From assembly GCA_028554795.2 (NCBI GenBank), contig CM068825.1, positions 90,764,951 to 90,828,950 of the forward strand: 64,000 nt of DNA, read 5' to 3'. Source of the DNA: Sinohyriopsis cumingii (lineage: Eukaryota; Mollusca; Bivalvia; Unionida; Unionidae). The position numbers and the translations under genes are program-made. Each line of letters starts with the position of its first letter. The stretch's first letter is position 1. Under the pieces are notes generated by a model. It was not told where the DNA came from and searched no databases. It saw only the letters and a program-made list of their open reading frames with translations. Below are positions 42,601 to 48,600 of the stretch, piece by piece.

Positions 42601-45600
42601 ATGTGAGTGTTGTGTTGAGAGGCTGAGGGGCAGTTCTTAGAATGCCTGTCTCTGAACTTCCTCTATCATGACACTAAACAGTAGAGGTGATCTGAAGGGA
42701 GTGGTTCAAGGTATCAAAGCGTGAAGAGGCTTGAGCGAGGTAAAGCATAAGCATACGTCCTGACACATAGATCCAAGTTAGTAGAACAGCCAAAGCATTT
42801 GCCACTGCATGGTGGGCAACCCAGTTAATCACCTTGGATATTCTCGACCTAGGTTCCTGGTATGGTCATTGCCAGCCTTATCTACCAGTCAAAAAAATCA
42901 CCAGCAATGCCAAATCAAATAAAGAAGAGGTATCCACATTCTTGTGAATGAGCTTCAAAGTGGCATGCATAACTCCTTTATTTATCTTATAATAAGTAGG
43001 CGAAGTAATATTGACCATGGCGTAGTTTTTGTCTAATACTGGAAGATCTGTAGAAAAGGCATCAGAATGAGTTCTATACCAGCAAGAATGAGTTCTATAC
43101 CAGCAAGATATAATGGACCCTGGTATTTGACTCAGATAAAAAGGCTTTGTAATTGCCTGGACCATTGATTTTGGAAGAAAGTTTCTTTGCAATTTCCTTG
43201 ATTTTTACTGATTGTGGGAGAAGACAAAAGGAAGGGCTGATGTCTTCATCAATATCAACTGAGGTCTTGACCTTGTATGCCGGTGTAGAAGAGAGGGGTA
43301 GTGGTTATTAGACAACACCAGAAAATTTCCTCTACAGCTGCTTTAAAGCTGCTCTCAGTCCCCTCCATGGTGGGATCTAAGTGTAAGCTATCCTCAGGTT
43401 CACCCCCACACAGTGTGTGGGTCTTCATGGTCATGACTTACTGGCCCTAGGACTGCGCTCAGGCATGTGCAGGTACTTATGCCCACTAGGCTGTCTAGAA
43501 CTGGGTAGAAATTCTTCTCCCATAGAGATGAAATTCTTGGCTAGGACAGAATAAGATGGAAAGACAGGAGAAAATTGGCTAGAACAAACCAATTCTGTTG
43601 TCACCTGTTGCACCAAATGACACACTTGTAATTCCAGTGACAACTTAGGTGGAGGAGGAGAAGTCACACTGCCTCCAATTCTCCAGAAGGGACAGTAGCT
43701 GCATGTAATGTTTGACATTTCTTTGTTGGAGGAGGGAGACCAAGGGCATCCCCCACAAAACTGTGCAAACACTCCTTATCAGGATGGATACTCAATAGAT
43801 CAGTACTCTGAGACTGATTTTCCCATGCCGAGAATAAGTCCATGTAGGTAAAGAAACTTCACATAAATATGAATGAAATTTAAAAATTAAAGTATACCAC
43901 CTGTAGAATAACATGTATTAAGGCTGAAAATAATGTAGTCCTTGATAAATGGAAGCATACAACAAAAAATCCAAATGGTTTTTAGGATGCAAAGTAATCT
44001 CACATGTTCAGTTCACAGCTAAGGCTTTAAACTAGTACCATCCATAGGTGGCAAAGACGTGGTAATGGGCAAAAGTTACCTTTCTCTATACTTTATAGAC
44101 TGAAAGATGAATTTTTGTCTTTGGAAGGGCTAGATTCGGGAGGTAGTAGGTCTTATATACGTAATGTTAATGTGATTGGGGAACATATTCGAGGGAGGAA
44201 AAAAAGACCACAACAAACTAATGTTAAGTTGTGGAATCTACACTATGAAACTTTAACATAGTACCTCAGTGTTGATAACAATAATGCTGATATTAATATT
44301 ATGGCTTGAAACTTGAAACCTATCTCTGTCTTCCCATATGAAGGTTCAACAACAAGGAATCCATTATAAATACAAATGTATTACCTGAATTCACACTGGA
44401 TATATATTCCACCAATTCCAGACCCACTTGGCTTGAGTCTTTCTTAGTCTCATCTGGCTTCTTTTCAAGCAGCTGGGCTGCTTTAAGGTATGCCATATCT
44501 AGAGTATGAAGAGAGAAATACATTTAGTATATGAAGGTATGCCATATCTAGAGTATGAAGAGAGGAATATATTTAATTTATGAAGGTATGCCATATCTAG
44601 TGTATGAAGAGAGAAATACATTTAGTTTATGAAGGTATGCCATATCTAGAGTATGAAGAGAGGAATACATTTAGTTCATGAAGGTATGCCATATCTTGAG
44701 TATGAAGAGAGGAATAGATTTAAGTTCATGAAGGTATGCCATATCTAGTGTATGAAAAGATGAATACATTTAGTTCATGAAGGTATGCCATATTTAGAGC
44801 ATGAAGAGAGGAATACATTTAGTTCATGAAGGTATGCCGTATCTAGAGTATGAAGAGAGGAATACTTTTACTTTATGCAGGTATGCCATTATCTAGAGTA
44901 TGAAGAGAGGAATATATTTAGTTCATGAAGGTATGCCATATCCAGTGTATGAAGAGTGTGTGTATGTGTGATTTGGATTTTAACGTAGCTTTATCAATTT
45001 TTCAGTCATTTCGCTATGATGTCTGCAGTGTAGCAGTTTATAGTGATGTCTAGCACTGGGGCATCATGCCACATACATACAGCACGATGTCCCACCCAGT
45101 CACATTATCCTGACACCAGGCCAACTAGTCCTAACACTAATCTCTTAAAGCTGAGTGCCAAGCGAAATAGCTGTTAGTACTATTTTTGTAAGTCTTTGGT
45201 ATGACTTGGCCGGGGATTGAACCCACGACCTCCTGCATCTGAGGCGGATGCTCTACCCCCTAGGCCACCGGAGCAGTGTAGTGTATGAAGAGAGGAACAC
45301 ATTTAGTTTATGAAGGTATGCCATATCTATATGCCATATCTAGTGTATGATTTTGTTGTTGTTGTTGTAATGGGGTTTAACGCCATTTTTCAGCACAAGA
45401 TACACTATACAAGGTGGCCAGTATTAATGGTGGAGGAAGAACCCGGGAAAACCCCGGAAAGAACCACCAACCCATGAGAAGCTACCGGCAAGCTTTCTCA
45501 CATATCCACATTGACCGAGCCCGAGACTCGAACCCACGTAGACAGAGGTGAGATGGCAGTGATCTGTGACGGAGAGTGCTTTAGACCACTCGGCCACTCG

Positions 45601-48600
45601 GGGCCCCTCTAGTGTATGAAGAGAAGAACACATTTAGTTTATGAAGGTATGTCATATATAGTGAATGGAGAGGAATACATTTAGTTCATGAAGGTATGCC
45701 ATATCTAGTGTATGAAAAGAAGAATACATTTAGTTTATGAAGGTATGTCATACATAGTGTATGAAGAGAGGAATACATTTAGTTCATGAAGGTATGCCAT
45801 ATCTAGTGTATCAAGAGAAGAATACATTTAGTTTATGAAGGTATGTCATATATAGTGTATGAAGAGAGGAATACATTTAGTTCATGAAGGTATGCCATAT
45901 CTAGAGTATGAAGAGAGGCAAATACATTTAGTTCATGAAAGTATGCCATATCTAGTGTATGAAGAGAAGAATACATTTTGTTTATGAAGGTATGTCATAT
46001 ACAGTGTATGAAGAGAGGAATACATTTAGTTCATGAAGGTATGCCATATCCAGTGTACGAAGAGAGGAATACATTTAGTACACGAAGGTATGCCATATCT
46101 ATAGTGTGAATAGATGAATACATTTAGTTCTGCAACCTGATGTATCATTTACATATAGTCAAACCTGTCTTAAACAGACACCTATATGAACTGAGAAAAG
46201 TGACCTCTGAAGACAGGTGGTTGCCTAATATACATTTATTGGCATAATTACTTGAGGGTTCTTGAAAAAGTGGATATTTAAGACAGGGGATGCTTAATGG
46301 AGGTGAACATTATGGCAGGTTTGACTGCACATATAAATGAAAAGGATTTATATATTAGTAGCAATAAAAGCAAGAATGCATAAACAATATCATCTGTTTT
46401 AAAATTCTAATGTAAAAGAGATCCTGAATGAGCCTTATGGTTTCAAACAAAACAAAAATGAATCATTTTCAAAATACCTGTACATTATTGTTTTCTTTGC
46501 TGCCATTTTGGAAATATACAATAGTTTACCAAGATAATTTAATATGGGATTTTCCTCTTCAAAGTTTAATCTACTTAGCTTTGAAGGCTGTTTTCAAAAC
46601 TAGATTTATCAGTGATCCAAAAATATCTTTCTTGTCCAACACAACAATTAAGTTCCATCCAACCTATCCAAGTATACAATTAAAGTAATATGATAAGTAA
46701 GTTTATTCCAGTTTCCAATAAAGTGGTCAGAAAGAGCATTTTAATTTAAGTAGGCCAGGATGTACATAGGTCTAGCATGGATGAAGCTATGTGATTATAA
46801 GCACAAATACTTAACACATATTAGAAAAGTATACAATTTATGTCCCTGTAACCTTTGATTTTAGGGAGTAATAGTAACAGAGATGCATCTAGTTAATAAG
46901 TTTCTTTAACGGAATGCAATAAATGAATTTTTAACACAGAATTCTGAACAAAGTTACTGAACTTTGCAATATGTCAGAAACCTCTTTTTGTAAAAAGGAT
47001 GTAGAAACAGTAGAAGGATGTAGTGGTGTGCTAGTAACAGTGATACATACCAACATCATGATTCTAGCATTACAGAGAAATGAACACCAAAGACAAAATT
47101 TAATCCAAGTTAATTAAGGGCTATTTATGACCTGATATTAAAATGAAGAAGTAGTGTTCTTCAAAATACATTCCCAAGTATACAATTCTTGATAGGATGC
47201 CAAAACCCCATACCGTCATGAACTAAATGCAAAATTTATGCCCAAGTCAGTAAATGTGAAATATAATTTAGTGATCTCTTATTGTAAAGGTGCAGTACAA
47301 GCAGAGGTGCAAAGAATAATTGAGTTTGACCATTCAACCATAACAGAATTTAAAAAATAAAGTGAAATCACAAAATTTAAACCATGGAAACTTGAAATAT
47401 AGGTTAGTGGCCATTTTTGTTACTTGTCAAGATACATCCCGCACCATGCTACATTAATCTTGGTATAACAGTATTTATACAGTGTGCAAAACACTATCTG
47501 GTCTTAGAGCTAATTGCAAAAACTTGTCAGGAACATGTTAACTGTAGGTAACAGTGGCCTTCTTTTGTGGTAAGGATGTGGTACTAATAGACACACACAA
47601 TCATCTGGCATGATGATTCTAGTATAAAATAGCTTGATAAAAAGAAACTTAAACTCCCATATTTAACAATTAAACTACTTAAACATATTTAACCAAAGTC
47701 GCTGAAGTGTTTAGTCAAAGTGGCCTCCTTTTGTGATGAGGCTGTAGTACTACCCATGAAGGTGCATTTACTACACAAGTTTCATGATTCCAGGTAGAAC
47801 AATATTCATACAGTGTGCACAAAACCATAGCAAAATGCAAAAACTTAACCAGGAATGTACAACTAATGTACATATATGTACAACATTAGCCCTCTCAGCC
47901 CCTTTCCTTGGGGAGTAAATGCTATGAAACCCACTCCATCCTGTTGATTATAATAAAATGGAGTCGCTAAGAAAATCCAGATTGTTATGTACTAGTGGCA
48001 GTTTGTTAAATATTTATATCTATTACTAATTACCATAATGTAATCTAGGAAGTCGTATGTGGCTAAAATACAGTGTAATGAGAAAGCGTAATGATGAACC
48101 ATACATTAAAAATATTGTGTGGCTAATTATTAATAATCCATTGCTGACCTATAAATGAAGTACAAAGAAAAACTCCAATGAATATTTAAACTATGAAAGG
48201 TTTTGTTACTATTTAATATAGTCTGCTACTACCTGAAACTTCGTTGACCAGCTCAGAAAATGTGGTGTGCATGTTGACATGCACTGTCCTGAATTGGCGA
48301 CCAGCTCCAAACCGTGGGTGCTGCACAGAGTTTGCAGAGTTAAAGACTTGAGTCCAATGCTGTGAAGGATCAGCTCTAAATGCCACCAGCACCTTCTCAT
48401 CTTCCAAGAGCACTTGAAGCAGGAGACGCCGTGTAAATCCAGACAATGGACACACACTAAGACCTGTCCAAATATATATATATATAAAATATATTTTCTG
48501 TCATTAAGTTTGATAAATAATTAATTATGAATTGCTTGTATGGGGTATATTTGATGTTTCTGGGCTAAAATTCTGGTCATATATCACATAAGAGGGCTGG

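Follow-up and report, generated by a model that had tools for sequence, protein, structure and literature searches.

A minisatellite built on a BIRC6 3' splice junction in Sinohyriopsis cumingii, with comparable arrays at other splice sites

The window analysed here, a 64,000-nucleotide stretch of contig CM068825.1 (positions 90,764,951 to 90,828,950 of assembly GCA_028554795.2) from the bivalve Sinohyriopsis cumingii, carries exons of BIRC6 on its minus strand, including an upstream exon (53798-53043) that matches Pfam BIRC6 and a downstream exon (9082-8846) that matches the ubiquitin-conjugating domain of Pfam. Between these lies an exon (44498-44385) which is directly preceded, in transcript sense, by a minisatellite in which a 49-bp unit can be fitted 23 times, running on the minus strand from 46132 to 44485. 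The first two bases of the exon, AT, complete a split Asp codon. When it is joined to the preceding exon (48463-48233), with the split codon read as Asp, the product aligns with solved BIRC6 chains, which we take to be mammalian, over 94 residues without a gap (best E 1.6e-16; residues 3841-3934 of the best-matching chain, 8ivq_A), and the VSD of the solved chains matches at the exon junction, where their Asp is present too. This gapless alignment, split Asp included, identifies 44498 as the protein-preserving acceptor, and on frame and homology it is the predicted acceptor in use.

Each unit combines 35 intronic bases, comprising a pyrimidine-rich tract and an AG, with the 14 exonic bases ATATGGCATACCTT; unit 23, the last, is itself the real junction. 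The original prediction had already recognized an array made of the intron-exon junction itself, with the exon-start bases as part of the repeat consensus, and both statements agree with the fitted unit. It had also counted about 21 copies ending at 46125 and placed the acceptor in nearly every one; the minisatellite is real and the acceptor is repeated within it, but there are 23 units starting at 46132, and only 15 of these, the real one included, hold an AG at the acceptor position (14 of the 22 decoys, leaving eight without). Nineteen units are complete, while the other four (units 11-14) are cut or interrupted by two inserted elements. Tandem Repeats Finder (TRF) assigns a period of 49 bp to 44485-44956 (9.6 copies) and to 45608-46130 (10.7 copies), and additionally finds multi-unit periods of 148 and 247 in the array. 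Counted in transcript sense, the exact exon-start 14-mer has 14 copies in the window, its real position among them, and all lie in the array; in antisense the whole window has none. The motif ACTAAAT, found 17 times in 46150-44385, might represent a branch point.

Junction-spanning minisatellites have been named mirages in amphioxus, where they are described in the globins BflGb6 and BflGb9 (PMC3087553, which cites Adh3) and in PGBD5 (PMC3902484, which cites Adh and TnC). The BIRC6 array corresponds to them in that its tandem units hold both intronic and exonic sequence of a single junction, in that these units sit in the intron adjoining the intact real junction (unit 23), and in that the splice dinucleotide is kept in many, although not all, of them. 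We consider it probable (roughly 0.78) that the array is a mirage, a tolerated by-product of repeated local tandem duplication over the BIRC6 3' splice junction.

Table 1. Positions in the window of the BIRC6 exons, the array, its blocks and its inserts.
Feature	Position	Strand	Basis
Preceding BIRC6 exon, ending TTTCAG before GTAGTA	48233..48463	minus	
Whole junction-derived minisatellite (probable mirage), 23 units, 4 of them broken	44485..46132	minus	TRF and unit fit
Distal decoy block: units 1-10 and start of unit 11	45608..46132	minus	
Insert 1, about 257 bp, dispersed repeat, SINE-like (short interspersed element) by eye	45351..45607	minus	
What is left of units 12 and 13, enclosed by inserts 1 and 2	45280..45350	minus	
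Insert 2, about 323 bp, tRNA-like head by eye	44957..45279	minus	
Exon-proximal decoy block: rest of unit 14 and units 15-22	44534..44956	minus	
Real acceptor junction (unit 23), its AG at 44500-44499 and the exon starting at 44498	44485..44533	minus	
BIRC6 exon, 114 nt; donor GTAATA follows at 44384	44385..44498	minus	Gapless BIRC6 alignment and open frame

With a simple acceptor score devised for this analysis the real site reaches 2.65 and four decoys equal it, so the earlier contention that local acceptor sequence cannot tell the real site from the best decoys stands. The same prediction had reasoned that a unit of 49 bp, which is indeed not a multiple of three, would shift the frame if the acceptor one unit upstream were used. 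That argument was understated, since none of the AGs listed between 46136 and 44547 can be used, in frame or not, without meeting a stop inside the exon or ahead of it; the in-frame decoy three units (147 bases) upstream of the real acceptor is no exception. Position 44498 and some AGs inside the exon keep the frame open. As all upstream AGs lead to stops, decoy use cannot yield a longer protein, and an mRNA spliced at a decoy should be a substrate for decay. These stops also bear on the proposal, put forward for the amphioxus globins (PMC3087553), that such arrays are a stage of intron or exon gain in which an internal copy can be recruited as a new exon; here all upstream AGs meet a stop when read through to the end of the real exon (the check did not extend to internal exons with a donor inside the array), and we regard this explanation as hardly to be entertained for BIRC6.

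The two inserted elements and the differences among units provide the array with a history. Insert 1 is flanked on both sides by the 12 nt TCATACACTAGA (45619-45608 and 45350-45339) and insert 2 by the 13 nt CTCTTCATACACT (45292-45280 and 44956-44944), and in both cases the duplicated flanks are array sequence. Insert 1 belongs to a large dispersed family, with 4854 first-look candidates in the genome (counts from genome searches for repeats are lower bounds throughout) and the best other copies 96% identical among 40 scored; since a member of a dispersed family sits within the array, the array is older than that insertion. ARAGORN finds no tRNA genes in the window, nor does Rfam give a match there at gathering scores. 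The 19 complete units differ by 11% on average. Units 3, 6, 8 and 10 differ from one another at only one to four positions, and all four have lost the AG and carry A in place of G at exon position +6; such shared losses have been multiplied by duplication and represent few separate events. An assembly artefact might be suspected in a structure judged from one assembly, particularly as the amphioxus globin paper notes a mis-assembled mirage in a draft genome (PMC3087553). Stuttering of one sequence would not, however, produce units that differ by 11% or two inserts with duplicated flanks, which makes an artefact highly improbable.

A survey of splice junctions elsewhere in the genome covered 78 exon matches, of which 53 are to dynein AAA_6 (50 loci, drawn from 96 listed matches and mainly from those without stops) and 25 to the myosin head (24 loci, from 71 matches). 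A junction was taken to have copies when the adjoining intron, searched over 400 nt, contained a match at 19 or more of 24 positions to a 24-nt window centred on the junction. Own-junction copies were found at six of 74 callable donors (loci L073, L075, L095, L099, L103 and L124) and at one of 74 callable acceptors (L099), while the reverse complement, a shuffled query and the flank of another exon each gave 0/74, for donors and acceptors alike. Pooled, 7/148 junctions have copies against 0/444 controls (p 5e-5) or 0/148 (p 0.007), with L099 counted on both sides and the pooled junctions not all independent; the difference between donors and acceptors is not significant (p 0.12). The clearest parallel to BIRC6 is L073, in which a sequence ending MMVPDY, inside the dynein match, runs into the donor GTTAGT and the junction repeats through the intron in 55-bp units, for which six genome matches were found, all at this locus. 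The part of the exon that is repeated falls, in L073 as in L099, inside the Pfam AAA_6 match, and therefore the exon is the source. Of the 38 decoys found for the six donors, 34 keep the GT; a stop would follow in 32 of the 34, but not in one decoy of L075 and one of L103. The splice dinucleotide is lost from 8/22 acceptor decoys in BIRC6 against 4/38 donor decoys (p 0.02).

The donor-side junction minisatellites of the dynein and myosin genes have units of about 19-88 bp, with up to 13 decoys in the fetched flank. At L082 the array stops 3 nt short of the called acceptor and the AG is not shared, and at L105 (1-302) an acceptor-side array by a myosin exon has AG in its copies and first exon bases that diverge from the units; these two loci, like L068, L056 and L072, fall short of the survey threshold and were not counted. 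Kinase PF00069 loci were left out because they are largely one repeated gene. Contigs C2 (2.64-2.79 Mb), C193 and C603 hold tens of very similar kinase open reading frames (ORFs), mostly of 459 codons and with PF00069, at a spacing of about 7.7 kb. Two stretches of one dynein gene, L075 (930-1146) and L067 (1-231), carry the same 27-bp unit where their ends face each other.

A search of the whole genome (2.9 Gb) with 102 array bases returned 11 matches, all in the BIRC6 array, so that the unit does not behave as a dispersed satellite or transposon-borne repeat, which would be found at many loci. Since the unit is found at the BIRC6 locus only, the array has most likely grown from the junction rather than landed there as a satellite. 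The contrary view, that a pre-existing satellite or other repeat came to lie by the exon and gave it both the acceptor and the opening bases, can appeal to MAYL, the four whole residues with which the exon begins, which are not conserved with the TPSI of the solved BIRC6 chains; for BIRC6 alone, conservation thus cannot prove that the exon preceded the array. We nevertheless find such an origin very unlikely, as the unit occurs nowhere else in the genome search, the real junction fits the BIRC6 alignment gaplessly down to the split Asp codon, and the exonic portion repeated at L073 and at L099 belongs to the dynein domain match.

It is also conceivable that the array is functional, its decoys diverting splicing to non-productive mRNA and its copy number setting BIRC6 output. 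The AG kept in 14 of the 22 decoys, the four that score level with the real site and the stops that follow all upstream AGs would all suit such a device. Against this, eight decoys have no AG and two inserts break the array, amphioxus mirages are reported to give no aberrant mRNAs (PMC3087553, PMC3902484), and the occurrence of this structure at exons of dynein and myosin genes points to a general process and not to a device of BIRC6. We judge a regulatory role unlikely, and the array most likely has no function.

Under the preferred explanation, a mirage arising as a tolerated by-product, the minisatellite would have been built as a 49-bp segment straddling the junction was duplicated in tandem, locally and over and over, each duplication leaving one intact junction at the exon and burying the extra pieces in the intron. 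Because the intact junction stays at the exon, such duplication would be nearly harmless and selection would see little of it. Correct mRNA would be made from the exon-proximal acceptor at 44498. Since the best decoys match the real site in tract, AG and first 14 exon bases, the choice of site must rest on something beyond the unit, and may be made by exon definition across the 114-nt exon together with the exon sequence that follows position +14. An mRNA spliced at a decoy would gain intron sequence with an early stop and presumably be exposed to nonsense-mediated decay. Acceptor decoys lie before the real acceptor and donor decoys behind the real donor, so the former should compete harder; the data lean towards such stronger competition, a hint that comes from small numbers and from decoys of shared descent.

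Several observations sit less comfortably with this explanation. Exonic columns are less variable than intronic columns (0.57 non-majority bases per column against 1.39 in the 19 complete units, figures uncorrected for the shared descent of the units), a difference not expected from pure neutrality by itself; the AG columns vary more, with 2 and 5 non-majority bases. The greater loss of AG than of GT hints at selection, with the proviso that losses within one array share descent. The assignment of 44498 as the acceptor in use is based on frame and homology, the lack of conservation of MAYL noted above applies here as well, and the survey junctions were called by a simple sequence-based score with provisional weights. 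Finally, the other junctions of BIRC6 are free of copies among 28 exons called over 113 kb, most of them presumed to belong to the gene from order and strand, with a few junctions poorly called and one acceptor lacking AG.

A wider proposal, which we advance tentatively and hold to be rather doubtful, is that splice junctions are preferred birthplaces of minisatellites in this lineage, at several per cent of exons and at donors perhaps more than at acceptors. Some process at exon edges, whether transcription-coupled breaks, R-loops or weak purifying selection, would then feed the duplication, while the spliceosome would routinely ignore near-perfect decoys and decoy AG would be purged faster than decoy GT. 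If true of several per cent of exons, this would matter to gene annotation, to models of intron gain and to repeat-length polymorphism in such genomes. The BIRC6 array itself amounts to a natural experiment on splice-site choice, its best decoys being alike in tract, AG and 14 exon bases; were the last copy used exclusively, it would show the weight of exon definition and exon sequence.

Other repeats and genes were encountered in the window and elsewhere in the genome. The window contains a 43-bp array at 34880-35083 and, at 40732-41078, a 173-bp unit in two tandem copies that are 98% alike. At 41401-42091 lie ORFs with an ACRVSEL-like motif, two scanned ranges of which are without Pfam match at E 0.001; we presume the motif to be one of tyrosine-recombinase elements. 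A 21-bp tandem repeat at 43064-43108 with the look of a doubled donor was rejected, its adjoining ORF having no PDB match up to E 1 and no Pfam match. Upstream of the window (L050), a 24-bp array (1686-1754) was rejected as its adjoining ORF has a chance PDB match only (E 4.9), and a 53-bp array (676-913) with an acceptor-like motif was not counted because it touches no nameable exon. A long ORF on the minus strand of L047 (about 5960-7207) resembles, we assume, a pogo/Tigger-type transposase. Hemocyanin PF14830 gave no match, and since its controls gave none either, this says nothing about the placement of the animal. Two COX1 genes, on contigs C807 and C1106 (L013, L015), are open under the invertebrate code, look bivalve-like in their features and encode proteins 70% identical, which might be sex-linked mitochondrial types or derive from a second organism; C807 carries two copies of COX1 separated by 15,961 bp, which is suggestive of a doubled circle.

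Amphioxus genomes measure about 0.5 Gb, and compared with the mirages described there the array reported here lies in another animal, with a genome of 2.9 Gb, as well as in other genes. The survey suggests that junction-derived minisatellites are no peculiarity of amphioxus. The amphioxus papers describe minisatellite-like tandem duplication over the intron-exon boundary at acceptor or donor, so that either side of an exon can be affected, with AG or GT kept in many but not all copies, copies adjoining the real junction, unit lengths that differ, array length that varies and splicing said to be undisturbed (PMC3087553, PMC3902484). The likeness to the BIRC6 array is close, while its 23 units exceed the six and three of the two BflGb6 haplotypes, and whereas normal splicing, length variation and somatic instability are reported for amphioxus, the structure here is known from the sequence of one assembly. 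Intron gain by tandem duplication of splice sites (PMC3087553; PMC2891723, the latter on Drosophila introns) likewise involves duplicated splice-site sequence inside a gene; in BIRC6, unlike those cases, the duplicates lie in an intron that fits the BIRC6 alignment and no new intron is seen. Internal tandem repeats of human segmental duplications, which alter the structure of genes there (PMC2812944), share minisatellite expansion, sometimes at an exon-intron boundary, yet half of them are in coding sequence, while the BIRC6 exon stays intact. Among the open-access literature matches listed, no such arrays appear outside amphioxus save these human repeats (PMC2812944) and Drosophila introns (PMC2891723). 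What is new is a structure with the anatomy of a mirage in another lineage and another gene, recurring at other splice sites of the same genome.

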